Origin: Amorphus orientalis
GTDB taxonomy: Bacteria > Pseudomonadota > Alphaproteobacteria > Rhizobiales > Amorphaceae
NCBI RefSeq assembly: GCF_030814015.1
Contig: NZ_JAUSUL010000002.1
Coordinates: 682,001-746,000 of the forward strand
Reading direction: 5' to 3'
DNA length: 64,000 nt
This document shows, piece after piece, positions 5,046-43,652 of this stretch. Position 1 is the stretch's first letter, and each line of letters starts with the position of its first letter. A model generated the notes under the pieces. The model was not told the DNA's origin, did not search any database, and worked only from the letters and a program-made list of their open reading frames with translations. Both the position numbers and the translations under genes were made by a program.

Positions 5046-5561
5046 ATGCAAACCCGGCACCAAACGATGGAAAAAACCAAGCAGGCGGCATCACCGTCAC
5101 TCTCCGGTCGGAGCGGATCCGTCCTTATCGTGCTTCGCCGAATCATTCGGTCCGTCGACCTGCAGTCGCGTCAGGTGGCCCGCACGGTCGGGCTGACGAT
5201 TCCGCAACTCATCGCACTGCATGCGGTCCGCGACCTCGGGGAGGTGACTTCGACGGTGCTGTCGTCCCACGTGTCGCTGAGCCCGGCGACGGTCACGACG
5301 ATCCTGGACAAGCTGGAGAGCCGCGGACTGGTCGAGCGCTACCGAAGCGCGAGCGACCGGCGGGTCGTGCACACCCGGCTCACGGATCAGGGCCGGGACG
5401 CGCTCGAAAAGGCGCCGCCGCTGCTGCAGGAGAGCTTCGTTCGCAGCTTCGAGGGGCTGGATGCCGAGCGTCAGGACGCCCTTCTCGACGCGCTCGAGGA
5501 CATCGCCCAGATGATGGAAGCGGGCGCCAGCAAGGATACGACCTGGCTGGTCGAGAGCTAG
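5046..5561 (+). CDS. MarR-family transcriptional regulator
   Basis: A winged-helix MarR regulator of about 171 residues. The DNA-binding region is clear: VGLTIPQLIALHAV, then SLSPATVTTILDKLESRGLV (recognition helix), then the wing RSASDRRVVHTRLTDQG. The start is uncertain. ATG at 5046 and ATG at 5067 both fit, and neither has a strong ribosome site. It is divergent from the NAGGN biosynthesis operon, an arrangement known for this osmolyte locus, and a palindrome in the shared gap is the likely operator. Its ligand is unknown; an osmotic or ionic signal is speculation. Confidence 0.85.
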   Translation: MQTRHQTMEKTKQAASPSLSGRSGSVLIVLRRIIRSVDLQSRQVARTVGLTIPQLIALHAVRDLGEVTSTVLSSHVSLSPATVTTILDKLESRGLVERYRSASDRRVVHTRLTDQGRDALEKAPPLLQESFVRSFEGLDAERQDALLDALEDIAQMMEAGASKDTTWLVES

Positions 5562-29255: not shown

Positions 29256-29870
29256 ATGACCGAGAAGCACGGCTTCGAGCCGACCTTCGGCGATTCACCG
29301 CGCGACAAGCTGCTGGAAGCGGCTTCGGTTCTGTTCTGCCGCGACGGCATCAGCGCCACCGGGGTCGACAAGGTGGTCGAACTCGCCGGCACTGCCAAAA
29401 CGACGCTTTACAAGTGCTTCGGCTCCAAGGAGGGACTGGTCGAGGCGGTGCTGGAGGCGGAGGGGCACGCCTGGCGCACATGGTTCCTGAGCGAGGTGCA
29501 CCGCGCCCGTGGCGGGCCGCGCAAGAAGCTACAGCGCATCTTCAAGGTCCTGGAGACCTGGTTCAGCGCCCACCGCTTCTATGGCTGTCCGTTCATCAAT
29601 GCCGTGGGCGAGTCCTCGAAGGCCGACGACCGGATGCGCGAGCTGGCGATTGCCCACAAGACGGTGATCCTGGCCGAGATCGAGAGCCTGTCCAGGGAGG
29701 CGGGCGCTTCCGATCCGAAACGGCTCACCCACCAGGCCGCCATGCTGATCGATGGGGCCATCGTGACCGCCATGATCACCAAGGATGCCAAGGTAGCCAG
29801 GATCGCAGGCCAGGCGTTCGGCACCATTCTTGACGACGCGCTCGGCAATGAAGCCAAGGAAGCCGCCTGA
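29256..29870 (+). CDS. TetR-family transcriptional regulator
   Basis: A 204-residue repressor. The N-terminal helix-turn-helix is clear: KLLEAASVLFCRDGISATGVD followed by LAGTAKTTLYKCFGSKEGLVEA. The C-terminal ligand-binding half contains FYGCPFINAVGESS, common to a TetR subgroup that controls detoxification genes. ATG 29256 follows AAAGGAG. It is divergent from the cyanase/ABC operon, and matching palindromes lie near each promoter. It probably represses both units. The inducer is unknown and may be the operon's substrate. Confidence 0.92.
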   Translation: MTEKHGFEPTFGDSPRDKLLEAASVLFCRDGISATGVDKVVELAGTAKTTLYKCFGSKEGLVEAVLEAEGHAWRTWFLSEVHRARGGPRKKLQRIFKVLETWFSAHRFYGCPFINAVGESSKADDRMRELAIAHKTVILAEIESLSREAGASDPKRLTHQAAMLIDGAIVTAMITKDAKVARIAGQAFGTILDDALGNEAKEAA

Positions 29871-30049: not shown

Positions 30050-30079
30050 TTGCGTTCCAAGACGCGAGTGACCTAATGT
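30050..30079 (+). promoter_or_regulatory. Candidate sigma-70 promoter of amiC
   Basis: TTGCGT at 30050-30055 and TAATGT at 30074-30079 are separated by 18 bases. Transcription would then begin a few bases before the first leader hairpin at 30088, which fits a short regulatory leader. The box matches are only moderate. Confidence 0.35.
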
Positions 30080-30087
30080 AATTGTCT

Positions 30088-30125
30088 GGATCAGCGTCGA
30101 TCCGTGTGACGGAGCAACGAAGCTC
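30088..30125 (+). promoter_or_regulatory. ANTAR-type antiterminator RNA before amiC
   Basis: Two small hairpins with six-base loops stand in tandem. P1 is GGATC-AGCGTC-GATCC (30088-30103). P2 is GAGC-AACGAA-GCTC (30112-30125). Both loops have A at position 1 and G at position 4, the hallmark of RNA sites bound by ANTAR proteins. The 3' strand of P2 is also the 5' strand of the following terminator, so the two structures exclude each other. The AmiR-like protein encoded two genes downstream is the probable ligand. Confidence 0.8.
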
Positions 30126-30162
30126 TCGCGTCTCTCGCCAGGGACCCGAGGGCTTTTTTTTT
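30121..30162 (+). terminator. Intrinsic terminator in the amiC leader
   Basis: AGCTCTCG (30121-30128) pairs with CGAGGGCT (30147-30154) in an eight-pair stem with one G-U pair, followed by nine T residues (30154-30162). A smaller stem, CTCTCG/CGAGGG, can form inside. The GGAGG ribosome site of amiC begins at the next base. Confidence 0.75.
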
Positions 30163-30172
30163 GGAGGATGTC

Positions 30173-31339
30173 GTGGAAGAAGAGGCGAAATCGAACGCCC
30201 CATGGCGCGTCGGCGTCCTGTTCTCTCAGAGCGGCGTGACTGCTGCGATCGAACGCACCCAGTTGAACGCGACGCTCCTGGCGATCGACGAGATCAATTC
30301 AGCCGGTGGTGTGGCCGGCCGGCCGATCGAGGCCGTGGCTCATGATCCACAGTCAAATCCCAAAAAATTCCGTGAGCTGGGCGAGAGGCTTATGGAGGAT
30401 TCACGGGTCCGGGTGGTCTTCGGCTGCTATATGTCGAGCACCCGCAAAGCTCTGCTTCCCGTGCTTGAGGCCCGTGACGGATTGCTCTTCTATCCGACGC
30501 TCTACGAAGGGTTCGAGTACTCGTCCCACTGTATCTATACAGGGGCTGCGCCCAATCAGAATTCATTGCCCCTTCTGAAGTATTTGCTTGATACTTATGG
30601 TGATCGTTTTCTGTTTGTCGGCTCAAACTATGTTTTCCCGTACGAGTCGAACCGCGTGATGGCGGACCTCATCGCGAGCGCGAAGGGCAATGTGCTGAAC
30701 GAGATCTACATTCCGCTGGAGCCGAAGGCGGAGGACTTTGACAAGGTGATCCGGGAGATCCGCAAGCACGGGCCCGATGTGATCTTCTCGACCGTGGTGG
30801 GGGCCGGTACGCCGATGCTGTACCGGGCCTATCGGGAGGCGGGTTTCGATCCTGCGAAGATGCCGATCGCGAGCCTCACCACCAGCGAAGCGGAAGTTGC
30901 CCTGATGGAGCCGGAGGATGCGGCCGGTCACATAACGGCCGCTCCGTTCTTCGACAGCCTGAACACATCCTCGGCCCGGTCCTTTGTTTCCGCCTTCCGA
31001 CTGAAGTACGGGCAGGACGCGCCGATCCCGGCCGGAGCGGAGGCGGCCTATTTTCAGGTGCATCTGTTCGCCGAGGCGCTTCGCTCGGCAGGGAGCGATG
31101 CGCCGGACGCGCTGGTGCGGGCGCTGAAGGGTCTGGAGCACGACGCCCCCCAGGGCCGCGTCCGGATCGATTCCGACAACAACCACACATATCTCTGGCC
31201 GAAGATCGGGCGCATTACGGAGAACCGCGGGTTCGAAGTGGTCTGGTCCCCGAGGATCCGGGTCAAGCCGGATCCCTATTTCCTGTCGCCGAGCATCGAT
31301 GACTGGTCGCATCTGCCTTTCGAAGGCAGGCGCGCCTGA
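30173..31339 (+). CDS. amiC: AmiC-like amide sensor / amidase expression regulator
   Basis: A 388-residue protein of the periplasmic-binding-protein fold without a signal peptide, hence cytosolic, matching AmiC of Pseudomonas (385 residues). WRVGVLFSQSGVTAAIERTQ and GCYMSSTRKALLPVLE parallel the exported binding protein at 32299. AmiC binds short amides and in their absence holds AmiR inactive. The start is GTG 30173 with GGAGG five bases before it. amiR follows 21 bases downstream. The leader carries an ANTAR site, so the pair is probably autoregulated. Confidence 0.92.
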   Translation: MEEEAKSNAPWRVGVLFSQSGVTAAIERTQLNATLLAIDEINSAGGVAGRPIEAVAHDPQSNPKKFRELGERLMEDSRVRVVFGCYMSSTRKALLPVLEARDGLLFYPTLYEGFEYSSHCIYTGAAPNQNSLPLLKYLLDTYGDRFLFVGSNYVFPYESNRVMADLIASAKGNVLNEIYIPLEPKAEDFDKVIREIRKHGPDVIFSTVVGAGTPMLYRAYREAGFDPAKMPIASLTTSEAEVALMEPEDAAGHITAAPFFDSLNTSSARSFVSAFRLKYGQDAPIPAGAEAAYFQVHLFAEALRSAGSDAPDALVRALKGLEHDAPQGRVRIDSDNNHTYLWPKIGRITENRGFEVVWSPRIRVKPDPYFLSPSIDDWSHLPFEGRRA

Positions 31340-31360
31340 GGAAGCCGAGGGGGAGGCGAG

Positions 31361-32020
31361 GTGGCGATCGAGGTACTCCGCGATCTGCGCGGCCTGCGGG
31401 TGCAGGTCATTCATCCGCCTGACGCGGAGGGGCAGGGCCTTGTCGAACAGTTTCACCGGATCGGGTGTCTGACCGAAACTCAATGGCCCGTTCCGGACGA
31501 TTTTTCGCCGACGGCGGACGTCGCCGTGCTGGCGATCGAGTACGAGGCACGGGATCAGATCCGGAAACTGACGAAGCACCGCGGCGGGCAGATCCAGCCG
31601 ACCATCATCGCCATCGTCGGTTACGAGGATCCAAGCACGCTCCAGATCGTGCTGGAAAGCGGAGCGCTGGCCATCGTGGAGCGTCCGATCCGGCCGTTCG
31701 GTCTCTTGTCGAACCTCACCGTGGCGCGAAGCCTCTGGCTGCAGCGCATGGAGGCTGAAAAGCGCGCCCGCAAGCTGGAGCGCAGGCTCTCCGGCATGCA
31801 GCAGGTCCAGAAGGCCAAGTCGATCCTGATGAACAGCCAGGGCATCACCGAAGACGAGGCTTACGGCATGCTCCGCAAGCAGGCCATGGCCAAGCGGATG
31901 GCGATGGAGGATCTGGCGGCTGCGATCATCAATGCGAACGACGTGCTCGGCGGTGTGAATGGGCTGGACAAGCCCGCTCGATCGAAAACCCGCTTGCGTC
32001 CCGCGGAGGACGATGCTTAA
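31361..32020 (+). CDS. amiR: AmiR-like ANTAR antiterminator
   Basis: A 219-residue protein. The N-terminal 130 residues form a pseudo-receiver domain without a clear phospho-acceptor site. A coiled coil (AEKRARKLERRLSGMQQ) leads to the C-terminal ANTAR RNA-binding domain with QKAKSILMNSQGITEDEAYGMLRKQAM. The start is GTG, preceded by GGGGGAGG. In Pseudomonas AmiR binds the ami leader RNA and prevents termination when AmiC releases it. Here two matching leader RNAs are present, at 30088 and 32075. Confidence 0.94.
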   Translation: MAIEVLRDLRGLRVQVIHPPDAEGQGLVEQFHRIGCLTETQWPVPDDFSPTADVAVLAIEYEARDQIRKLTKHRGGQIQPTIIAIVGYEDPSTLQIVLESGALAIVERPIRPFGLLSNLTVARSLWLQRMEAEKRARKLERRLSGMQQVQKAKSILMNSQGITEDEAYGMLRKQAMAKRMAMEDLAAAIINANDVLGGVNGLDKPARSKTRLRPAEDDA

Positions 32021-32031
32021 ACTGTGAGCAT

Positions 32032-32064
32032 GCGGAGGAATTGCACAGCCGTGCGTTCCTCCGC
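32032..32064 (+). other. Nine-pair hairpin after amiR
   Basis: GCGGAGGAA (32032-32040) pairs perfectly with TTCCTCCGC (32056-32064), with an inner GCAC-AGCC-GTGC stem. There is no T-tract, and the inner loop has four bases, so it is neither a standard terminator nor an ANTAR hairpin. It may stabilise or separate the amiCR message from the downstream leader. Confidence 0.5.
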
Positions 32065-32074
32065 CCATTGAGGC

Positions 32075-32113
32075 GCCGACAAGGATGTCGGCCCGCGCGG
32101 CACAGTGGCCCCG
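32075..32113 (+). promoter_or_regulatory. ANTAR-type antiterminator RNA before the amide/urea operon
   Basis: P1 is GCCGAC-AAGGAT-GTCGGC (32075-32092). P2 is GGC-ACAGTG-GCC (32099-32110), extendable across one mismatch to 32096-32113. Both six-base loops have A1 and G4. The 3' strand of P2 is the 5' base of the terminator that follows, so binding of AmiR to P1-P2 would prevent terminator folding and allow reading into the transporter, amidase and urease genes. Confidence 0.82.
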
Positions 32114-32145
32114 GAAGACCTGACAGGTCTTCGCGGGGCTTTTTT
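32108..32145 (+). terminator. Strong intrinsic terminator in the leader of the amide/urea operon
   Basis: GCCCC and GAAGACCT (32108-32121) pair with AGGTCTTC and GGGGC (32125-32139) around a three-base loop, with one bulge, and TTTTTT follows (32140-32145). It lies between amiR and the downstream operon and overlaps ANTAR hairpin P2. Confidence 0.9.
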
Positions 32146-32165: not shown

Positions 32166-32183
32166 GCCGACAAGGATGTCGGT
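32166..32183 (+). repeat. Second copy of the P1 hexaloop hairpin, beyond the terminator
   Basis: GCCGACAAGGATGTCGG recurs exactly (17 bases; first copy 32075-32091, second 32166-32182), again forming a hairpin with loop AAGGAT. No P2 partner or terminator was found after this copy. It may be a second AmiR contact or the remains of a duplicated leader. Confidence 0.7.
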
Positions 32184-32298
32184 TCGCCTGTGACAACTGA
32201 TTTTTGGTCCGCGACTTCGGTCGCCATCCGGATCGCCGTGGGGAAGCGGCGGACCCACGCCGGAGCTCGGACTTTTGACACGCAGAGGGGACTTGCTG

Positions 32299-33552
32299 AT
32301 GTCGTTTAATCGCCGTTCGTTCTTGAAGAGCAGCGCGCTCGCCGCCGGTGCGCTCGCGACCCCGGGCATTTTCCATCGTGCCGCAATGGCCGCCGATGAA
32401 ATCGAGGTCGGCGTTCTCTTCTCTCAAACCGGGGGCTTGTCGATCATCGAGAAGTCCTTGTCCGATGCCACGCTGATGGCGATCGACGAGATCAACTCGG
32501 CCGGCGGCGTGCTCGGGAAGCAGATCAAGCCGCTCGTGGAGGACGGGGCGTCCGATCCCAAGACCTTCAACGAGAAGGCGTCGAAGCTGATCATCCGCGA
32601 TCGGGTGCCGACCGTATTCGGCTGCTACACGTCCGCCAGCCGCAAGGCGGTGCTGCCCGTGTTCGAAAAGCGCCGGAACCTGCTCTTCTATCCGACCTAC
32701 TACGAAGGGTTCGAGTGCTCCAAGAACGTGGTCTACACGGGCGCCGTTCCGAACCAGCAGCTCTCGAATTTCATCCCCTGGATCATCAACACGCTCGGCA
32801 AGAAGAAGTTCTTCATCGTCGGCTCGAACTACATCTATCCGCGCGAGATGGCGAAGGTGTCCAAAATCCTCATCGAGCAGAACGGCGGGGAGTGGATCGC
32901 CGACGAGTATCTGGAACTCGGCCACTCCGAATGGGGGGCGATGGTCAACAAGATCAAGTCGTCGGGCTGCGATGTGGTGCTGTCGAACGTCGTCGGTGAT
33001 TCCGTTGTCGCCTTCTACCGCGAGTACAAGAACCAGGGTATCAGCCAGGCGGACCTGCCGATCTGCGCGACGGTGACGTCGGAGGTCGAGATCGCAGCCA
33101 TGGGCGCCGAATACGCAGCCGGCAGCTACACGTCGTTCCCCTATTTCCAGGCGATCGATACGCCAGCCAACCATGCCTTCGTCGAGCGCTACAGGAAATT
33201 CGTCAACGATCCGAAGGCCGTGACCCATCACGCGATGGCCTCGTCCTACTTCCAGGTCTTCCTGTGGAAGCAGGCGGTGGAGAAGGCCGGAGAGGCGACC
33301 CCGGAGGCGATCGTCGCCAACGTCGGCGGCCAGTCGTTCGATGCGCCCGACGGCAAGGTCACGGTGGAGGCGGCAAACCTGCACACCGCCATGACGCCGC
33401 GTATTGCCCAATGGAAGGCGGACGGACAGGGCGAGATCGTGGAAGCCTACGATCACCCGGTCTTCCCGCTGCCCTACGTGGCCTACGGCGAGACCCAGGA
33501 CAATCTGTTCTGTACGGCCCAGGGCCTCGATACGAGCAAGCTCAACCAGTAG
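32299..33552 (+). CDS. Amide/urea ABC transporter substrate-binding protein (UrtA/FmdD type)
   Basis: A 417-residue periplasmic binding protein with a Tat signal (FNRRSFLKSSALAAGALATPG). The mature part EIEVGVLFSQTGGLSIIEKS is typical of UrtA and FmdD and is clearly paralogous to the AmiC-like sensor upstream. ATG 32299 follows AGAGGGG. It is the first gene of a long operon running to ureD. The binding protein could take urea, short-chain amides or both, and the downstream amidase plus urease make both plausible. Confidence 0.92.
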   Translation: MSFNRRSFLKSSALAAGALATPGIFHRAAMAADEIEVGVLFSQTGGLSIIEKSLSDATLMAIDEINSAGGVLGKQIKPLVEDGASDPKTFNEKASKLIIRDRVPTVFGCYTSASRKAVLPVFEKRRNLLFYPTYYEGFECSKNVVYTGAVPNQQLSNFIPWIINTLGKKKFFIVGSNYIYPREMAKVSKILIEQNGGEWIADEYLELGHSEWGAMVNKIKSSGCDVVLSNVVGDSVVAFYREYKNQGISQADLPICATVTSEVEIAAMGAEYAAGSYTSFPYFQAIDTPANHAFVERYRKFVNDPKAVTHHAMASSYFQVFLWKQAVEKAGEATPEAIVANVGGQSFDAPDGKVTVEAANLHTAMTPRIAQWKADGQGEIVEAYDHPVFPLPYVAYGETQDNLFCTAQGLDTSKLNQ

Positions 33553-33668: not shown

Positions 33669-34562
33669 ATGGTCGATATTCTGTTTATCGGGCTGAGTCT
33701 GGGCTCGATCCTGCTGCTGATCGCGCTTGGCCTATCCATCACCTACGGGGCGATGGGGGTCATCAACATGGCTCATGGCGAACTGGTCATGATCGGCGCC
33801 TACACGGCGGTGCTCGCAGGCATCTATCTCGGGGCCAACATCTTCGTCGCGATGCCTCTGGCTTTTGTCGCAACCGCGCTTCTGGGTTGGCTGATCGAGG
33901 CGGTGGTCGTGCGCAGGCTCTACGGACGTCTGCTCGATACGCTTCTGGCCACCTGGGGCGTGGCGATCCTGATCCAGCAGGCCGTACGCCTCGAGCTGGG
34001 CCTGACCTTCTTCGGCATCCAGATTCCGGGCCTCGGCCCGGGGCTCCAGAACGTAAGCGTTCCGGAGATCCTGTCCGGCACCGTCGCCATCTTCGGCGAA
34101 GAAGTGAACGCGTACCGGACCTTCATCATCTTCGTGACGATCGTGCTGACGGTTCTGACGTGGTGGATCCTCTACCGCACGCCGATCGGCACACAGGTCC
34201 GCGCCATCATCCGCAATCCGCAGATGGCGGCAGCGTGCGGTATCGACGTCAAGCGCGTGAACGCCATGACGTTCGCCTACGGCTCGGGACTTGCCGGGGT
34301 CGCCGGCGTGATGATGTCGGGCTTCAAGACCGTCTTTCCCGATATGGGGACCCCGATGGTCGTGGACGGCTTCCTTGTGGTGGTCGTGGGCGGCGTCGGC
34401 AGCCTGCTCGGCACCGTGGCCGCCGCAGGGCTCCTGGGCGAGATCAACGGCGTGTTCGCGTCCGTCACCAACGACATTCTCGCGCGCGCCGTCGTCTTCG
34501 CCACGGTCATTCTGATCCTGATCCTGAAGCCGGCCGGCCTGTTTTCCTTCAAGGGGCGCTGA
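33669..34562 (+). CDS. urtB: Branched-chain-type ABC permease UrtB
   Basis: A 297-residue LivH/UrtB permease with about eight membrane segments. GLSITYGAMGVINMAHGELVM at the N-terminus and the EAA-like IRNPQMAAACGIDVKRVNAMTF region are characteristic. ATG 33669 follows AAGGACGATC. It lies 116 bases after the binding-protein gene and four bases before urtC. It forms the inner-membrane channel with UrtC for urea or short amides. Confidence 0.94.
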   Translation: MVDILFIGLSLGSILLLIALGLSITYGAMGVINMAHGELVMIGAYTAVLAGIYLGANIFVAMPLAFVATALLGWLIEAVVVRRLYGRLLDTLLATWGVAILIQQAVRLELGLTFFGIQIPGLGPGLQNVSVPEILSGTVAIFGEEVNAYRTFIIFVTIVLTVLTWWILYRTPIGTQVRAIIRNPQMAAACGIDVKRVNAMTFAYGSGLAGVAGVMMSGFKTVFPDMGTPMVVDGFLVVVVGGVGSLLGTVAAAGLLGEINGVFASVTNDILARAVVFATVILILILKPAGLFSFKGR

Positions 34563-34566
34563 GATC

Positions 34567-35724
34567 ATGTCCGAGACCCTTCAGCGCCGCCTTGAGATTC
34601 TCGCCTACGCGACGTTCATTGCGGTGATCCTGATCCTGCCGGCCTTCGCCGACATCTTCTGGCTGAACCGCTTCGCCAAGTATCTCGTCTACGGCATGCT
34701 CGGCATCGCCATTGCCATGTCGTGGGGTTACTCCGGCATCCTCAACCTTGGGCAGGGGCTGTTCTTCGGTGCCGGCGCCTACATGCTGGCCATGTCGCTG
34801 AAGCTCGCGAGCCCGACCAGTCTGGCCCAGGGGTCGGACACTCCGGTTCCGGACTTCATGCTGTGGAATGCGGAACCGGGTGCGCCGACGGACCTGTGCT
34901 GCATCACCGGCGGCTCCTGGCTCTGGATGCCGTTCCAGTGGGTCGGCTTCGGCGCCTTCATGGGGATCGCGCTTCCCGTGCTGCTGGCCTTCACCATCGG
35001 CACGGTCATCTTCCGCCAGCGGATCTCCGGCGTGTTCGTCGCCATCATCACACTGGCGACCGTGCTGCTGGTCCGGCTTCTGGTCATCGATCTGCAGCCG
35101 ATCACCAACGGCTTCAACGGACTGACGGACCTGGCCTGGCTGACGATCGGGGGCTTCGAGTTCGATCCCTATCTGCTGGCCACCTACTACCTGATCGCCG
35201 GCATCCTCATTGCCGTGCTGATCGGGGCTCGGCTTCTGGTCGCGACCCGGGCCGGCCTCGTGCTTCAGGCGATCCGCGACGATTCCAACAGGGCCCGCTA
35301 TCTCGGCTTCGACGTGCCGAAATACCAGACCTTCTTCTTCGCGGTCTCCGCCGGCATCGCCGGTCTCGCCGGCATGCTTTACGTGATCGTCGCCGAGTTC
35401 GCCTCGCCGACCTTCATGGACCTCACCTTCTCCATCACCATGGTGGTGTGGGCGGCGGTCGGCGGCCGCAACTCGCTGCTCGGCGCCTGCATCGGCGCGA
35501 TCCTCATCAACACGATCGAGGCCTCCATCAGCGAGACGGAGATGTTCGTCGAGGCATGGAAGGCGATCATCGGCCTGATCTTTGTCCTCGTCGTGCTGTT
35601 CCTGCCGCGCGGCCTTGCCGGCTTCGCCCAGGACGCCAGCGCCTGGGTCGTCGGCAGGCTTAATCGCGGCGAGGGAAGTCCGGCGTCGGCCGTCGGCCAA
35701 ACCCGCAATCAGGCCGCGGAATAG
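34567..35724 (+). CDS. urtC: Branched-chain-type ABC permease UrtC
   Basis: A 385-residue LivM/UrtC permease with about ten membrane segments. MSWGYSGILNLGQGLFFGAGAYML near residue 55 and the cytoplasmic AIRDDSNRARYLGFDVPKYQ loop near residue 240 are family hallmarks. It has a long periplasmic insertion around residues 75-120 that contains two cysteines (DLCCITGG), as in urea transporters. It follows urtB immediately and is followed by urtD after nine bases. Confidence 0.94.
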   Translation: MSETLQRRLEILAYATFIAVILILPAFADIFWLNRFAKYLVYGMLGIAIAMSWGYSGILNLGQGLFFGAGAYMLAMSLKLASPTSLAQGSDTPVPDFMLWNAEPGAPTDLCCITGGSWLWMPFQWVGFGAFMGIALPVLLAFTIGTVIFRQRISGVFVAIITLATVLLVRLLVIDLQPITNGFNGLTDLAWLTIGGFEFDPYLLATYYLIAGILIAVLIGARLLVATRAGLVLQAIRDDSNRARYLGFDVPKYQTFFFAVSAGIAGLAGMLYVIVAEFASPTFMDLTFSITMVVWAAVGGRNSLLGACIGAILINTIEASISETEMFVEAWKAIIGLIFVLVVLFLPRGLAGFAQDASAWVVGRLNRGEGSPASAVGQTRNQAAE

Positions 35725-35733
35725 GAGGGGGCA

Positions 35734-36486
35734 ATGGCGAACAAGTCAGCCCTGACCATCGACGCGCTGGAAGTCGATTTCTCCGGCTTCAAAGCGGTCG
35801 ACGGCGTCTCGATGGTCGTCGAGGATGGCGAACTGCGCGTGCTTCTCGGTGCCAACGGCGCCGGCAAGACGACGCTGATGGACCTGATCAGCGGCAAGAC
35901 CAAGAGCACCGGCGGGCGTGTCTTCGTGGGCGATACGGAGATCACCAATGCCGAAGAGCACCGGATCGCGCGCGCCGGTATCGGCCGCAAATTCCAGATC
36001 CCCAGCGTGTTTCGCGAACTGACCGTCCGGCAGAATCTCGAAGTGTCCAGCATCAAGAGACCGGGCGTGCTCGCCAATCTGGGTCTTCGCTTCTCCTCCT
36101 CCCAGCGGGAGCGGGTGGAGTCGATCCTCGATGAGATGGGCCTCGTCGACGTCGCCAATGAGACCGCCGGCGCGCTCTCCCATGGTCAGACGCAATGGCT
36201 CGAGCTCGGCATGCTGTTGATCCAGGAGCCGCAGATCCTGCTGCTCGACGAACCGACTGCCGGCATGACCCAGGCGGAAACCCTGAAGACGTCGCAGATC
36301 ATCAACAGGCTGAAGGGACGGCACACGCTGGTCGTCGTGGAACACGACATGGCCTTCGTCCGTCAGATCGCCGAGCGGATCACCGTCATGCATCTCGGCA
36401 AGGTGCTGGCGGAGGGGCGCATCGAGGACATCGAGACCAACGAGGCCGTGCGCGAGGCCTATCTCGGATCCGGGGGCATTCACTGA
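35734..36486 (+). CDS. urtD: ABC transporter ATP-binding protein UrtD
   Basis: A 250-residue LivG-type ATPase. Walker A is LLGANGAGKTTLMDLISG, the family motif GRKFQIPSVFRELTVRQNLE follows, and Walker B is ILLLDEPTAGMTQAE. The signature is ALSHGQTQWLELGMLL, with His in place of the second Gly as is normal in UrtD. A GGAGGGGGCA sequence precedes the ATG. The last base of its TGA is the first base of the urtE ATG. Confidence 0.95.
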   Translation: MANKSALTIDALEVDFSGFKAVDGVSMVVEDGELRVLLGANGAGKTTLMDLISGKTKSTGGRVFVGDTEITNAEEHRIARAGIGRKFQIPSVFRELTVRQNLEVSSIKRPGVLANLGLRFSSSQRERVESILDEMGLVDVANETAGALSHGQTQWLELGMLLIQEPQILLLDEPTAGMTQAETLKTSQIINRLKGRHTLVVVEHDMAFVRQIAERITVMHLGKVLAEGRIEDIETNEAVREAYLGSGGIH

Positions 36487-37181
36487 TGCTGGCGCTCAGG
36501 GACGTCGACAGCTTTTACGGCTCCAGCCACGTGCTCCACCAGGTCGGACTGGAGGCGAAGTCGGGCGAGATCCTGGCGGTGCTCGGCCGCAACGGCGTCG
36601 GCAAGACCACACTGCTGAAGACCATCATGGGGCTAACCTCGTCCCATACCGGGGCGATCGAGGTCGACGGGGCGTCGATCTCGGAGATGCAGACCCATCA
36701 GAGGGCGCGCAGCGGCATTGCCTATGTGCCGCAGGGCAGGGAGATCATCCCGGACTTCACCATCCGCCAGAACATCCTGATGGGCTGCTTCGCGCGAAAG
36801 GACGGTAAGCGCGCGGTGCCGGAGCTCGCGATGGAGCTGTTTCCCTATCTCGCGGACAATCTGAACCGGCCGGGCGGCGTGCTCTCCGGCGGTCAGCAGC
36901 AGCAGCTTGCGATCGCCCGGGCGCTGGCCGCCGATCCCCGGGTTCTGCTGCTCGACGAGCCGACAGAAGGAATCCAGCCGAACATCGTCGAAGAAATCGA
37001 AGCGATTATTGTCCGCCTGAACAAGGAAGTCGGGCTGACGGTGGTCCTCGTCGAACAGAATGTCGGTTTCGCCCGCCAGGCCGCCCAGGGCTTCGTCCTG
37101 ATCGAGAAGGGCCGTGTGGCGGAGGCGGGGCCGACCGCGGAACTCACCGACGACCTCGTGCAGAAGCACATGGCCGTGTGA
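36486..37181 (+). CDS. urtE: ABC transporter ATP-binding protein UrtE
   Basis: A 231-residue LivF-type ATPase. Walker A is [18 protein letters not shown], the signature is [17 protein letters not shown], and Walker B is [37 protein letters not shown] is typical of UrtE. The ATG overlaps the urtD stop. A 190-base gap then leads to the amidase gene and holds a CGGGAC-GGAT-GTCCCG hairpin at 37300-37315. Confidence 0.95.
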
Positions 37182-37371: not shown

Positions 37372-38409
37372 ATGTTGCACGGTGACATCTCCAGCAGCCA
37401 CGACACGGTCGGCGTGGCCGTCGTGAACTACAAGATGCCGCGGCTTCACACCAAGGCCGAGGTTCTGGCCAACGCGCAGAACATTGCCGACATGCTGGTC
37501 GGCATGAAGCAGGGCCTGCCGGGCATGGATCTCGTGATCTTCCCGGAATATTCGACCCACGGGATCATGTACGACCAGAAGGAAATGTACGAAACGGCGT
37601 CGAGCATCCCCGGCGACGAAACCGAAATCTTCGCGGAAGCTTGCCGTAAGGCAAAGGTCTGGGGTGTGTTCTCGCTCACGGGCGAGCGCCACGAGGAACA
37701 CCCGAACAAGGCCCCCTACAACACTCTCATCCTGATGAACGATCAGGGCGAGATCGTACAGAAGTACCGCAAGATCATGCCCTGGGTGCCGATCGAGGGA
37801 TGGTATCCGGGCGAATGCACCTTCGTGTCTGAAGGTCCGAAGGGCATGAAGATCAGCCTGATCATCTGCGACGACGGCAACTATCCGGAGATCTGGCGCG
37901 ACTGTGCCATGCGCGGCGCCGAGCTGATCGTCCGCTGTCAGGGCTACATGTACCCGGCAAAGGAACAGCAGGTGGTGATGGCCAAGGCGATGGCCTGGGC
38001 GAACAACACCTATGTGGCGGTGGCCAACGCCGCCGGTTTCGACGGCGTCTATTCCTATTTCGGCCATTCGGCGATCGTCGGCTTCGACGGCCGCACCCTC
38101 GGCGAGTGCGGTGAGGAGGACATGGGCATCCAGTATGCCCAGCTGTCGCTGTCACTGCTGCGCGACGCCCGCAAAAACATGCAGTCGCAGAACCATCTCT
38201 TCAAGCTTCTGCACCGGGGCTACACCGGCACGATCAACTCCGGCGACGACATCCGCGGCCACGCGATCTGTCCGTTCGAGTTCTACAAGAACTGGGTCAC
38301 CGATCCCGACGGCACGCGGGAGATGGTCGAGGGCATGACCCGCACGACCGTCGGCACCGAAGAATGCCCGATCGAAGGCATTCCGAACGAAGCCACCTCG
38401 CACCGCTGA
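37372..38409 (+). CDS. amiE: Aliphatic amidase
   Basis: A 345-residue nitrilase-superfamily amidase that hydrolyses short aliphatic amides to the acid and ammonia. All catalytic residues match Pseudomonas AmiE numbering: Glu59 (FPEYSTHG), Lys134 (KYRKIMPW), Glu142 (IEGWYPGE) and Cys166 (LIICDDGN). [14 protein letters not shown] and the C-terminal [20 protein letters not shown] are typical of the amidase branch that also includes formamidases. ATG 37372 follows AGAGGG. Its position inside the transporter-urease operon couples amide hydrolysis with urea use. Confidence 0.96.
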
Positions 38410-38414
38410 TCTGT

Positions 38415-38446
38415 CCTGCCGGCCCGTTGTCCAGCGGGCCGGCAGG
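38415..38446 (+). other. Twelve-pair hairpin between amiE and ureE
   Basis: CCTGCCGGCCCG (38415-38426) pairs perfectly with CGGGCCGGCAGG (38435-38446) around an eight-base loop. Only a short CCCTTTCC follows, so termination would be partial. It may lower urease expression relative to amidase, or protect the 3' end of the amiE message. Confidence 0.6.
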
Positions 38447-38486
38447 CCCTTTCCGTATCCGCCCCTTTGGTCCGGAGACCCGTGTC

Positions 38487-39032
38487 ATGTTGCGCATCGA
38501 GACGATCCTGGGCAGTGCAACCGGCGAAGCTTTCGCTGGCCGTCTGCACGATCTCGCCCATCGGGATGCGGTGGAGACCGTCCGGCTTCCGGAAGGCGAT
38601 GTCGCACGTCGCAAGCTCCGGGTCGTCACCGACAAGGGGACCGACATTGCGATCGCTTTGCCGCGAACCCAGCGGCTCCAAGATGGGGCGGTGCTGGTCT
38701 GCGATGACGACCGGGCAATCGTCGTGCGTGTCGACGAGATCGAGTGGCTGCCGCTGGAGCCGATCGATGCGGCAAGTGCCGTTGAGCTCGGATATCACGC
38801 AGGCAACCTGCACTGGCGGGTGCGGTTCTCGGGCTCGACGCTTTTCGTCGGCCTGGAGGGCCCGGTCGATACCTATCTCGCGCGGCTCAAGCCGTTCGTG
38901 TCCCAGGAGCGGATCCGGGTTGGGAATCCGGCCGTGAACGTGGCCGGAGCGGAGCCGGCGTCCCATGGTCACGCTCATCATCACCATGACGGGCAGGCGG
39001 GACACTCTCATCCGTCGGAGGAGACGGCATGA
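38487..39032 (+). CDS. ureE: Urease accessory protein UreE, nickel chaperone
   Basis: A 181-residue nickel-binding chaperone. The N-terminal domain (RRKLRVVTDKGTDIAIALPR) and the metal-binding domain (VELGYHAGNLHWRV) are typical, with the conserved His in YHAGNLHW. The C-terminus has a His-rich tail, HGHAHHHHDGQAGHSHPS, that stores or delivers nickel. Unusually, ureE is the first urease gene here, before the structural genes. Its stop overlaps the ureF start by ATGA. Confidence 0.95.
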   Translation: MLRIETILGSATGEAFAGRLHDLAHRDAVETVRLPEGDVARRKLRVVTDKGTDIAIALPRTQRLQDGAVLVCDDDRAIVVRVDEIEWLPLEPIDAASAVELGYHAGNLHWRVRFSGSTLFVGLEGPVDTYLARLKPFVSQERIRVGNPAVNVAGAEPASHGHAHHHHDGQAGHSHPSEETA

Positions 39033-39697
39033 CCGCGCTCCTGACCGCGATCCGTCTTGCCGACAGCGCCTTTCCGAGCGGCGCGTTTGCGTTCTCGCAG
39101 GGCCTGGAGCCGATGCTTGCGGAAGATCGCGCTGCGGGCGCAGACGCCGTCCTCGGCTTCATACGCGAACAGCTCCGATTGCGGTTCCTGACCGCGGACC
39201 GGGTCGCGCTGGTCCGGGCTCTCGAGCTTGCCGACGACGAGGACGCGCTCGCCGCCGTCGATCGTGCGTTTCACGCCGCATCTCCGATCGAACCCCATCG
39301 CACTGCATCCCTTAGAAACGGGGCGGCTCTGCTTGCCGCCCACGTGCGCCTGGGAACGGCTGGCGCCGTCTCTTATCAGCGGCGGATCCGGGTGCAGCGC
39401 GCCTTCGGACATCTGCCCGTCGTCCAGGGTCTGGTGTTCGGCGGGTTGGGGCTTGGCGAAGGCGAAGCGGTTCGGGTCGCAGGCTACGGCCTCGTCATGG
39501 GCATGGCTCAGGCCGCACTCCGGCTCGGCCGGATCGGTGCGATAGACGCCCAGCGGGTCATCGCCGACGCCCTTGCCGACCTCGAGGCGATTGCCGACGA
39601 ACCGGTCGGCGATGCTGCCCCGGCCAGCTTCACGCCATTGTCCGATATCGCCGCCATCGGCCATGCCCGTCACCGTGGGCGGCTTTTCGCGTCCTGA
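39029..39697 (+). CDS. ureF: Urease accessory protein UreF
   Basis: A 222-residue all-helical accessory protein. LADSAFPSGAFAFSQGLEPM at the N-terminus is the family signature, and GHLPVVQGLVFGGLGLG near residue 130 is also conserved. It binds UreD and the apo-urease and gates GTP hydrolysis by UreG. The ATG overlaps the ureE stop. It is followed by the fused structural subunit gene. Confidence 0.94.
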   Translation: MTALLTAIRLADSAFPSGAFAFSQGLEPMLAEDRAAGADAVLGFIREQLRLRFLTADRVALVRALELADDEDALAAVDRAFHAASPIEPHRTASLRNGAALLAAHVRLGTAGAVSYQRRIRVQRAFGHLPVVQGLVFGGLGLGEGEAVRVAGYGLVMGMAQAALRLGRIGAIDAQRVIADALADLEAIADEPVGDAAPASFTPLSDIAAIGHARHRGRLFAS

Positions 39698-39715
39698 CGT
39701 TCAGGGAGAATCAGG

Positions 39716-40405
39716 GTGCTTCTTACACCGACCGAACTGGAACGGCTGACGATCTTCACCGCCGCCGAGCTTGCCCGGAAGCGGCGGGCGAAGGGGCTGA
39801 AGCTCAACTATCCCGAGACCGTCGCGATCCTGACCGACGAGATCCTCGAAGGCGCACGGGAAGGGCGGTCCGTCGCCGACCTGATCTCCTGGGGCAGCCG
39901 GATCCTGACCTACGACGACGTGATGCCGGGGGTCGCCGATCTGTTGCCGATGCTGCAGGTGGAGGGTGTTTTTCCAGACGGCACCAAGCTCGTCACGGTG
40001 CACGACCCGATCCGGCTGGGTGAGCCGCCGGAGGGCCTCGACCCGCCGGGCGAGATCCTGGCTGGCGCCGGCGAGATCGAGCTCAATCCGGGCCGCGACC
40101 GCGTCGTTCTCCAGGTGGTCAACACGGGCGACCGGCCGATCCAGGTCGGCAGCCACTACCACTTCTTCGACACCAACAAGGCGCTCGATTTCGATCGCGC
40201 GGCTTCCTACCGGTGCCGGCTCGACATTCCCGCCGGCACGGCGGTCCGCTTCGAGCCCGGCCAGTCGAAAGAGGTGTCGCTGGTGCCGTTCGGCGGGCAG
40301 CAGGAGATCTCGGGCCTCAACGCCCTGAACGACGGACCGACGACGGACGAGGATAAGGCTGCCGCCCTGCAGCGGGCGCGCGACCGCGGGTTCAGGGGCG
40401 CATAG
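39716..40405 (+). CDS. ureAB: Fused urease gamma-beta subunit (UreAB)
   Basis: A 229-residue fusion. Residues 1-100 are the gamma subunit ([44 protein letters not shown]). Residues about 105-229 are the beta subunit ([50 protein letters not shown]). Such fusions are known from Helicobacter and some other bacteria. The start is GTG 39716 with CAGGGAGAA upstream. The alpha-subunit gene follows ten bases later. Confidence 0.95.
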
Positions 40406-40415
40406 GAGCAGGGCC

Positions 40416-42128
40416 ATGGCAACGATTTCACGCGCCGACTATGCCGCAATGTACGGCCCGACCACGGGCGATGTGGTCCGGCTCGGCGACACCAGTCTCC
40501 TTGCCGAGGTGGAGAGGGACTACGCCGCTTACGGCGATGAATGCCTGCACGGCGGCGGCAAGACGCTGCGCGACGGGATGGGCCTCGTGGCGGGTGCCAC
40601 GAGCGCGGACGGCGCGCTGGACATGCTGCTGGTGAACGTCCTCGTCATCGACCCCGTACTCGGCATCGTGAAGGGCGATCTCGGCATCAAGGACGGCAAC
40701 ATCGTCGGCATCGGCAAGGCCGGCAATCCGGCGGTCATGGACGGGGTGGATCCGCGCTTGATCGTCTCGACGGCAACCACCGTGCGCGACTGCGAGGGCA
40801 TGATCGCGACGCCCGGCGGGATCGACGTGCACGTCCATTTCGATTCCGCCCAGTTGTGCGAACATGCGATCGCCGCAGGCGTGACCACGATGATCGGCGG
40901 CTCGCTCGGGCCGATCACCGTCGGCATCGACTGCGGCGGGCCGTTCAATGTCGGTAAGATGCTGCAGGCGGCCGAGGCCTGGCCGATCAATTTCGGCTTT
41001 CTCGGGCGGGGCAACACCCACAAGCCGGAGTCGCTTCCCGAGCAACTCGCCGCCGGTTGCCTCGGCCTGAAGATCCACGAGGACTGGGGTGCGATGCCGG
41101 CGGTGATCGACACCTGCCTTCGGGTCGCCGACGACCTCGATTTCCAGGTCCAGCTCCACACCGACACGCTGAACGAGTCCGGTTTCGTCGAGGATACGCT
41201 CGCGGCGATCGGCGGCCGCACCATCCACATGTACCACACCGAGGGTGCGGGCGGCGGCCACGCGCCGGACATCATACGCGTGGCCGGCGTCGCCAACTGC
41301 CTGCCGTCGTCGACCAATCCCACCAACCCGTTCACGGTGAACACCTTCGACGAACACCTCGATATGACGATGGTGTGCCATCACCTGAGCCCGTCGATCC
41401 CCGAGGATGTCGCGTTTGCAGAAAGCCGCATCCGGGCGCAGTCGATCGCGGCGGAGGACGTGCTGCACGATCTCGGCGCGATCTCCATGCTGGGCTCCGA
41501 CAGCCAGGGCATGGGCCGCATCCACGAGGTGATCTGCCGGACCTGGCAGCTCGCGTCGAAGATGAAGGACCAGCGCGGCCGCCTGCCGGAGGAGAAGACG
41601 GCGCGCGGCGACAACGAGCGGATCAAGCGCTTCATCGCCAAGTACACGATCAATGCCGCCCGCACGTTCGGGATCGCCGATCATGTCGGATCGCTGGAGG
41701 ACGGCAAGATGGCCGACGTGGTCGTCTGGCGGCCGGGCTTCTTCGGCATCAAGCCGGAACTGGTGATCAAGAGCGGCTTCATCGCCTGGGGCGCGATGGG
41801 CGATTCCGCCGCCTCGCTGATGACCTGTGAACCGCTCCAGATGCGCCCGCAATGGGGGGCTTTCGGACGGGCCAAGCAGGCGCTCTCGGCCTGTTTCGTC
41901 CATCCCAGCGCGATCGAGGCGGGCATCGCCGACACACTCGACCTGAAGAAGCGCCTGCTGCCGGCGCGGGGCACACGGACGCTCACCAAGGCCGACATGT
42001 TCCGCAACGACGCGGTGCCGGAGATACGCGTCGATCCGCAGACTTTCGACGTCTTCGTCGACGGCGAACTGGCCACCTGCGAGCCGGCCGAACGGCTGCC
42101 GCTCACCCAGCTCTACATGCTGCGCTGA
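40416..42128 (+). CDS. ureC: Urease alpha subunit (divergent UreC)
   Basis: A 570-residue nickel-dependent amidohydrolase. All expected active-site residues are present: His139 and His141 (DVHVHFD), the carbamylated Lys219 and His221 (LKIHEDWG), His248, His274, Cys321-His322 in the flap (VCHHLSP), Arg338 and Asp362 (GSDSQGMG). The stretch after HVH ([10 protein letters not shown]) and the segment around residues 162-175 ([14 protein letters not shown]) depart from canonical ureases (usually WICPQQ and GTHATTC). Urea is the probable substrate, but specificity may differ. Confidence 0.92.
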
Positions 42129-42144
42129 CCGCGAGGATATTGCC

Positions 42145-42801
42145 ATGCACGGATCGCATTCCATCGATGTGCTCGAGGTTCCGGCCGGCGTGGGCGGCGC
42201 CGCGCGAGTGGGTATCGGCGGGCCGGTCGGATCCGGCAAGACCGCAATCCTGGAGGCCCTGATTCCGGTCCTGACAGGGCGCGGCACCGATCTCTGCGTC
42301 ATCACCAACGACCTCGTAACCGACGAGGACGCCCAGCGCATCCGTTGCGGCGGCTTCATCGATCCCGCCCGTGTCTCGGCAGTGGAGGCGGGAGCCTGCC
42401 CGCACACCGTGATCCGGGAAGACCCGACCTTGAACATCGCGGCCGCTGACGATCTGGAGATGCGGTTTCCCGGGACGGAGTTGATCCTGATCGAGAGCGG
42501 CGGCGACAACCTCGCCTCCACCTTCTCGCTCGATCTGGTGGACTGGTGGGCGTTCGTGATCGATGTTGCCGGTGGAGATGACATTCCGCGCAAGCGGGGA
42601 CCCGGCGTCATCCAGGCCGATCTCCTGATCATCAACAAGATCGACCTGGCGCCCAATGTCGGTGTCGATCTCGCGGCGATGCACGAGGAGGCGGTCGCCG
42701 TGCGCGAGGGGCGTCCGGTGCTGCTGGCCAACGCTCGCAGCGGCGAAGGGATGACATCGCTCGCCGACGAACTCGGCCGCGCGGTCCTGTTCGACCGATG
42801 A
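42145..42801 (+). CDS. ureG: Urease accessory GTPase UreG
   Basis: A 218-residue SIMIBI GTPase that drives nickel insertion. The P-loop is [18 protein letters not shown], the metal motif CPH is in [13 protein letters not shown], switch residues lie in [17 protein letters not shown], and the base-recognition motif is [11 protein letters not shown]. Some positions differ from common UreG, for example [10 protein letters not shown] for TNDIYTKEDA. It follows ureC by 16 bases and overlaps ureD by ATGA. Confidence 0.95.
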
Positions 42802-43652
42802 CGGCCGCGCCGCCGCACCGGTTCGCGACACAAGAGGCTTCGCGCGCGCTCGACCTCACCTTTCGGCGACAGCGCGGCCGCACCCGGCTCGGCGAGCAAC
42901 GGGTGCGCTATCCCTTCCACATCACGCGGCCATTCCATTTCGATACGGCGGTCGCGCCGGGTCTGGCGACGCTGTACCTGCAGTCGGCGTCCGGGGGCTA
43001 CTATCGTGGCGAGCGGCTTCTGGCGCGGGTGCGCGCGGAGCCAGGCGCGGAGGTCTGCGTCACCACCCAGGCGTCGACGATCGTGCATCATGCGCGGGGC
43101 ACGGCGACAGTTGCCGACACCCGGATCGAAGCCGAGGCCGGGTCGGTCGTCTTCCACATGCCGGACCCGCTGATCCTGTTGCCTGGGGCGGATCTTCTGA
43201 CCACGCTCACGGTCCGGCGCGCGCCGGATGCGGCGGCCGTCGTGTCGGAGGCCTTTCTTGCCCACGATCCAGACGGCGAGGGCCAGCCGTTCGCGCGGCT
43301 CGACAACGAGATCCGCATCGAGACGCCGGACGGCGTGCCTGAGGCCATCGACCGCATGGTCGTGGACGTGGACGGGCTGTCGGTTGCGCGGCGACTGGGC
43401 GGAACGATCGCGGCCGGCGGCGTGCTCATCGTCGGGCCGCAGGCGGCCGCCGCCGACCCGCTGGCGGTGGAGGCGGGGCTCGGACCGATCGACGGCGCCC
43501 GCCTTGCCGTCAGCCGGCTCCCGTTCGACTGCGGCCTGACTGTGCGGATCGCGGCCGGCTCCGGCCGGGAATTGACCGCCGCGCTTGACGCGTCCTTCGC
43601 AGCCGCCTTCCGGCTGATCTACGGCGGCGAACCCGCGCGCCGGCGCAAATAG
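42798..43652 (+). CDS. ureD: Urease accessory protein UreD
   Basis: A 284-residue scaffold that binds apo-urease and Ure[22 protein letters not shown] and [14 protein letters not shown] are the family signature, and [13 protein letters not shown] is conserved. It has no signal peptide. It is the last gene of the amide/urea operon and overlaps ureG. It ends 11 bases from the convergent VWA gene, leaving no room for a full terminator. Confidence 0.93.

Follow-up and report, generated by a model that had tools for sequence, protein, structure and literature searches.

Gene content of the locus

The window analyzed here (a 64,000-nucleotide stretch of the Amorphus orientalis genome, positions 682001 to 746000 of contig C2) contains, in plus-strand order, a TetR-like gene whose end lies at 29870, leader 1, amiC, amiR, leader 2, an urtA-like gene, urtB, urtC, urtD, urtE, amiE, ureE, ureF, ureAB, ureC, ureG, and ureD. 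The amiC gene (30173 to 31339, plus strand, GTG start) matches Peripla_BP_5 (E = 1.7e-138) and the structure 1pea (E = 9e-107) and by homology encodes a cytoplasmic amide sensor and AmiR antagonist with a periplasmic-binding fold. It adjoins amiR (31361 to 32020, plus strand), which encodes an antiterminator protein with a pseudo-receiver (AmiR_N, E = 7.5e-34) and an ANTAR domain (E = 3.9e-15; 1qo0_D, E = 1.3e-21), so that an ANTAR protein is indeed encoded between the two leaders, as a previous reading of the sequence alone (the sequence-only reading) had proposed. These matches mark both proteins as true homologues of the Pseudomonas aeruginosa AmiC and AmiR of solved structure, and AmiC would, by the same homology, bind small amides and sequester AmiR. 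In an alignment against EutV, whose hexaloop-contacting residues are known (PMC8934654), AmiR retains equivalents of Tyr164, Met172, Lys149, Glu160, Arg168, and Arg175 and has none for Arg142, Asn173, and Arg177.

The operon downstream of leader 2, urtABCDE-amiE-ureEF(AB)CGD, spans 11 kb, up to the end of ureD at 43652, and lies entirely on the plus strand. It begins with a gene for an urtA-like amide/urea-binding protein (32299 to 33552; Peripla_BP_5, E = 3.8e-149, but under the UrtA cut-off), followed by the transporter genes urtB, urtC, urtD, and urtE (33669 to 37181; TIGR03409, 03408, 03411, and 03410, all above cut-off), an aliphatic amidase gene, amiE (37372 to 38409; NF009802, 718.6 bits against a cut-off of 427), and ureE, ureF, ureAB (a gamma/beta fusion), ureC, ureG, and ureD (38487 to 43652). 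Between amiE and ureE, at 38416 to 38450, CTGCCGGCCCG..CGGGCCGGCAG form a strong GC hairpin whose T tail is weak; this hairpin could bring urease expression below that of amidase. The nearest named relative is Amorphus coralli DSM 19760 (AmiR identity, 88%), which has no urtABCDE genes between amiE and the third hexaloop described below (locus L095), such that the corresponding leader directly precedes amiE.

Anatomy of the two leaders

Leader 1 (30088 to 30162, plus strand) lies upstream of amiC. Its first hairpin, P1 (30088 to 30103), is GGATC[AGCGTC]GATCC, with a loop at 30093 to 30098, and its second, the putative antiterminator P2 (30112 to 30125), is GAGC[AACGAA]GCTC, with a loop at 30116 to 30121; both loops have A at position 1 (A1) and G at position 4 (G4). 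The GCTC arm of P2 is also part of an intrinsic terminator with a U-tract (30119 to 30162), in whose core GCTCTCG (30122 to 30128) pairs with CGAGGGC (30147 to 30153), followed by nine T. This U-tract directly adjoins the amiC Shine-Dalgarno sequence GGAGG (30163 to 30167), from which it follows that the amiC mRNA has to traverse the leader 1 terminator and that this terminator is not merely the end of the upstream gene.

Leader 2 (32075 to 32145, plus strand) lies between amiR and the urtA-like gene and has the same architecture: P1 (32075 to 32092) is GCCGAC[AAGGAT]GTCGGC, with a loop at 32081 to 32086, and P2, again the putative antiterminator (32099 to 32110), is GGC[ACAGTG]GCC, with a loop at 32102 to 32107, both loops having A1 and G4. 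The GCC arm of P2 is shared with an intrinsic terminator and U-tract (32107 to 32145), formed by the arms GGCCCCGGAAGACC...GGTCTTCGCGGGGCT and six T (32140 to 32145). Directly 3′ of amiR, at 32033 to 32065, there is also a 9-bp hairpin (GCGGAGGAA..TTCCTCCGC), which is without a U-tract and is absent from A. coralli.

In both leaders, RNA cut short of the terminator's 3′ arm folds as P1 plus P2, whereas the complete leader adopts the terminator fold (z = −2.0 for leader 1 and −4.7 for leader 2), and both leaders of A. coralli alternate likewise (z = −7.5 for the leader 2 terminator). Each leader thus combines a pair of hairpins, each with 3 bp or more, that enclose six-base loops, A1 and G4 in both loops (in the window as in A. 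coralli), a constrained linker (loop starts 23 nt apart in leader 1, 21 nt in leader 2, and 21 to 25 nt in relatives), and a second hairpin that shares an arm with an intrinsic terminator. This is the dual-hexaloop attenuation mechanism described for ANTAR proteins by Ramesh et al. (PMC3369931), and the spacing constraint and the conservation of G4 agree with both that study and PMC8934654; the switch itself is therefore a known one. The tandem hairpins, the terminators, and the mutual exclusion of the two folds, all of which the sequence-only reading had reported for both leaders, were found as described, and both leaders, which are ANTAR-target attenuators by their anatomy, recur in A. coralli.

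Frequency and conservation of the leaders

The dual motif occurs far more often than expected by chance. A strict scan for two A1/G4 hexaloops 16 to 45 nt apart, with a terminator starting inside the second hairpin, returned six matches in 1.77 Mb of sequence from this and related loci (both strands, mainly the surroundings of AmiR) and none in 2.56 Mb of Markov-shuffled window sequence. These six are the two leaders of the window, the two leaders of A. coralli, a leader that precedes ureAB in a more distant genome, and, near position 5188 of the window, a minus-strand site that is probably due to chance. An ANTAR-like leader before the ureAB operon is present in genome G979 (L131:353-425; GCGGC[AGGGCT]GCCGC and GGC[TACGTA]GCC, then a terminator), on top of another leader 3′ of its amiR; in G979, the urease genes have a leader of their own within the AmiR regulon.

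Model-based searches were less informative. Rfam yielded no relevant match at its gathering and E-value thresholds, and it may hold no such family. A covariance model built from twelve non-Amorphus leaders ranked leader 2 first in the window (E = 0.04) but neither singled it out genome-wide nor detected leader 1; the motif is short, which makes such a model unsuitable for finding a regulon across the genome. The match that ranked next in the genome (C5:174571) lies in GC-rich sequence with no terminator in the part that was examined, and it was discarded.

For comparison across genomes, the search for orthologous amiCR loci covered the order (397 genomes) and the class (385 genomes), and loci were taken at 11 to 20 kb each. 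Leader 2 is conserved: at almost every close orthologous locus (Hyphomicrobiales and Tistrella), it separates amiR from urtA or amiE, and it is kept across about 20 AmiR loci, with loop starts 21 to 24 nt apart. G4 is present in all 22 P1 loops (G374 being counted after a one-base register shift) and in all 21 P2 hairpins, each of which has the form GGC[six bases]GCC. The P1 stem shows compensated changes in five of its six pairs and a covariation of 0.719, versus 0.186 in shuffled alignments (0 of 500). Since the loci share ancestry, such counts do not represent independent events. In one family member (G004, locus L112), a perfect hairpin (gctcaaaacAAAGGCgtttttgagc) without a terminator lies directly 3′ of amiR and is perhaps a rebuilt or decayed leader.

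The expectation that both loops carry A1 as well as G4 holds in the window and in A. coralli, and it holds for G4 throughout the relatives, but not for A1, which occurs in 17 of 22 P1 loops and in only 5 of 21 P2 loops, where position 1 is mostly T or G. In the EutV structure, G4 stacks on Tyr164 and A1 is without contact (PMC8934654), in agreement with a variable position 1, and A1 is thereby weakened as a criterion for this family.

Leader 1 in its dual-hexaloop form is restricted to the two sister species of Amorphus and was found nowhere else in the locus set. This distribution, in which most relatives lack a leader before amiC, would suit an arrangement in which leader 2 is the sole ANTAR attenuator, the terminator preceding amiC is an ordinary attenuator whose hexaloops are fortuitous, and amiCR is expressed independently of AmiR. 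We regard this as improbable, because A. coralli keeps both hexaloops, the overlap with the terminator, and a similar spacing (25 nt), and its changes preserve A1/G4 and pairing: P1 is GGGTC[AGCGCC]GACCC, with compensated pairs, and P2 is GAGC[AATGGA]GCTC. A GAGC/GCTC hexaloop as in P2 also occurs in Tistrella and in paralogous loci, and, more generally, a hexaloop (or A1/G4 heptaloop) within the terminator before amiC is present in 10 of 41 loci versus 0.24 expected from shuffles. These loci belong to Amorphus, Tistrella, the genus of G035 and G323, and three paralogous amiCR loci (in G083, G252, and G058), with four groups other than Amorphus represented. The same excess lends support, at the level of sequence, to the autoregulation of amiCR that had been predicted from the window.

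A probable arrangement of two attenuators in series

Our preferred interpretation, which we consider probable, is that AmiR opens both leaders and that these act as consecutive ANTAR-type transcription attenuators. It builds on the anatomy of the leaders, the conservation and covariation of their hairpins, their alternative folds, and the gene content of the locus. A likely amiCR promoter, TTGCGT-N18-TAATGT (30050 to 30079, plus strand), is situated about 8 nt 5′ of leader 1 P1; it is a weak match to the sigma-70 consensus and was missed by a consensus scan, but its hexamers and 18-nt spacing are unchanged in A. coralli, where the spacer has diverged. Only 54 nt separate the amiR stop from leader 2 P1, and in this interval there was no promoter by consensus scan and no promoter-like island conserved with A. 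coralli. The short gap and the missing island make it likelier that amiCR and the operon share one transcript, of which the operon is the distal part, and that attenuation is serial.

The sequence-only reading had instead predicted a separate antitermination of the operon, whereas the conserved island lies before leader 1. An operon with its own promoter, forming together with leader 2 a transcription unit parallel to amiCR, is a possible but less likely layout: TTGACA-like boxes 5′ of the first hairpin, between amiR and leader 2 P1, do occur in more distant relatives, and they imply that serial and parallel layouts can vary among loci, but the 54-nt gap of the window holds no counterpart by either approach.

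There remains the identity of the protein that reads the leaders. The genome encodes two ANTAR proteins, AmiR and a NasT-like protein (C5:228975), and, as the hexaloop targets of ANTAR proteins resemble each other, the latter might be the principal reader of one leader or of both and link nitrate sensing to amide/urea use. We consider this very improbable, since across genera the leaders go together with amiCR. At the NasT locus of this genome, no dual-hexaloop leader was found within the 18 kb examined.

Under the serial arrangement, with AmiR as its reader, transcription would start just 5′ of leader 1 and could proceed as a single transcript. Without amide, AmiC would hold AmiR, and polymerase would mostly halt at the leader 1 terminator; leak-through would yield a little AmiC-AmiR before polymerase halted again at the leader 2 terminator. 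With a small amide (or urea) as the presumed ligand, AmiR would be freed and would bind P1 and P2 as they emerge, and an AmiR-bound P2 would hold the arm it shares with the terminator, allowing polymerase to read on. At leader 1, this would generate more AmiCR (positive autoregulation), and at leader 2, it would open the 11-kb transporter-amidase-urease operon.

A third, solitary hexaloop

A third A1/G4 hexaloop, P3, lies at 32166 to 32183 (plus strand), outside the region covered by the sequence-only reading, which missed it. This hairpin, GCCGAC[AAGGAT]GTCGGT (loop at 32172 to 32177), is located 26 nt past the U-tract of leader 2 and 115 nt before the start of the urtA-like gene. When the window is compared with A. 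coralli, P3 stands out as a stretch of identity amid DNA that otherwise aligns poorly, and its distance from the U-tract is exactly the same in both. Across loci, it takes the form CCGAC-[A(A/G)(G/C)GNN]-GTCGG, 14 to 26 nt past the leader 2 U-tract, and it is present in 16 loci from six genera and five families (Amorphus, the genera of G035, g35, and g51, G284, and Tistrella), 14 of which pass a strict rule for which 0.53 would be expected. Its outer pairs covary, and its loop is variable at positions 2, 3, 5, and 6 but fixed at A1 and G4 in all 16 copies. The CGAC/GTCG stem is near-invariant across families, whereas P1 stems vary freely.

A search of the 397 genomes with a terminator-plus-P3 pattern produced 12 matches, 10 of them at amiR loci, versus none with a reversed control pattern. 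The other two matches, one following a gene like that of ribosomal protein S20 (G314) and one in coding-like DNA (G139), were taken as chance. P3 was not found in the Bradyrhizobium-like loci, in G213, or, apparently, in G374. In a genome of another class of the same phylum (G927, locus L129), a possible post-terminator hexaloop, GGC[AGCGAT]GCC, follows the terminator of an amiE leader.

P3 is an isolated hairpin with a conserved G4: no partner hexaloop with G4 exists at the spacing of the dual motif (18 to 28 nt) in 15 of the 16 loci, and G155 has a 3-bp candidate. This lack of a partner ruled out a second dual motif that would start with P3. Being transcribed after the termination decision at leader 2, P3 can have no influence on that decision on its own transcript; its A1/G4 loop, however, suggests that it binds AmiR, and the simplest reading is that it is a candidate single-hexaloop AmiR site of the type predicted in PMC8934654.

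A more mundane role for P3 has an appreciable, if less than even, chance of being correct: it sits in the operon's 5′ untranslated region and could simply be a hairpin for mRNA stability or processing. Alternatively, in the window, it could act as antiterminator to a second, weak terminator that ends near 32205 (GTCGGTT..AACTGAT followed by five T) and whose 7-pair hairpin overlaps the 3′ arm of P3. For a plain hairpin, the fixation of A1 and G4 in 16 of 16 loops whose other four positions vary would be hard to account for, and a second terminator is absent from A. coralli and not evident at other P3 loci; since the window species alone has one, it was ruled out as a general explanation. Our best guess for the function of P3 as an AmiR site, which we offer tentatively, is a sink: P3 would be found solely in read-through RNA and so would be made only after antitermination, and this RNA might titrate AmiR, damping and capping the positive loop set up at leader 1.

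Relationship to known ANTAR systems

The P. aeruginosa ami system shares with Amorphus the AmiC and AmiR homologues, an amidase target, and a two-hexaloop leader with an overlapping terminator (PMC3369931, PMC3369936). It has one leader, before amiE, with amiCR downstream in the same operon; in Amorphus, amiCR comes first with its own leader, and there are a second leader, urtABCDE and urease genes, and a post-terminator hexaloop. The departure from the single Pseudomonas leader that had been pointed out thus stands insofar as two leaders surround amiCR, but loci with multiple leaders are not new: the eut locus of Enterococcus faecalis has four dual-hexaloop attenuators served by one ANTAR protein and obeys the same G4 and spacing rules (PMC3369936, PMC3369931, PMC8934654). 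There, by contrast, EutV is a phosphorylated response regulator and is sequestered by a separate RNA (EutX/rli55); no post-terminator hexaloop was found described for this system in the open literature searched. The Klebsiella nasF leader (NasR) and the Bradyrhizobium targets of NasT, which has several target leaders (PMC6759348), employ the same RNA switch upstream of nitrogen genes but with other sensors and in response to nitrate, not amides, and the open literature searched contained no description of paired leaders around their regulator genes.

Relative to that literature, the new elements are the leaders flanking amiCR, with their predicted self-activation, and the post-terminator hexaloop. 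Single-hexaloop ANTAR sites were predicted in the 2022 paper on the EutV structure (PMC8934654), and we found no description, in the open literature searched, of a natural solitary site with a role defined by its position.

These results present attenuation by AmiR as a cascade with predicted self-activation, one that recurs in several lineages, and P3 as a natural, conserved candidate for the single-hexaloop sites predicted from the EutV structure. If P3 binds AmiR, it would suggest how a self-activating antiterminator stays in check; and the proposed sink, if true, would be a feedback device encoded by the order of hexaloops on one RNA.
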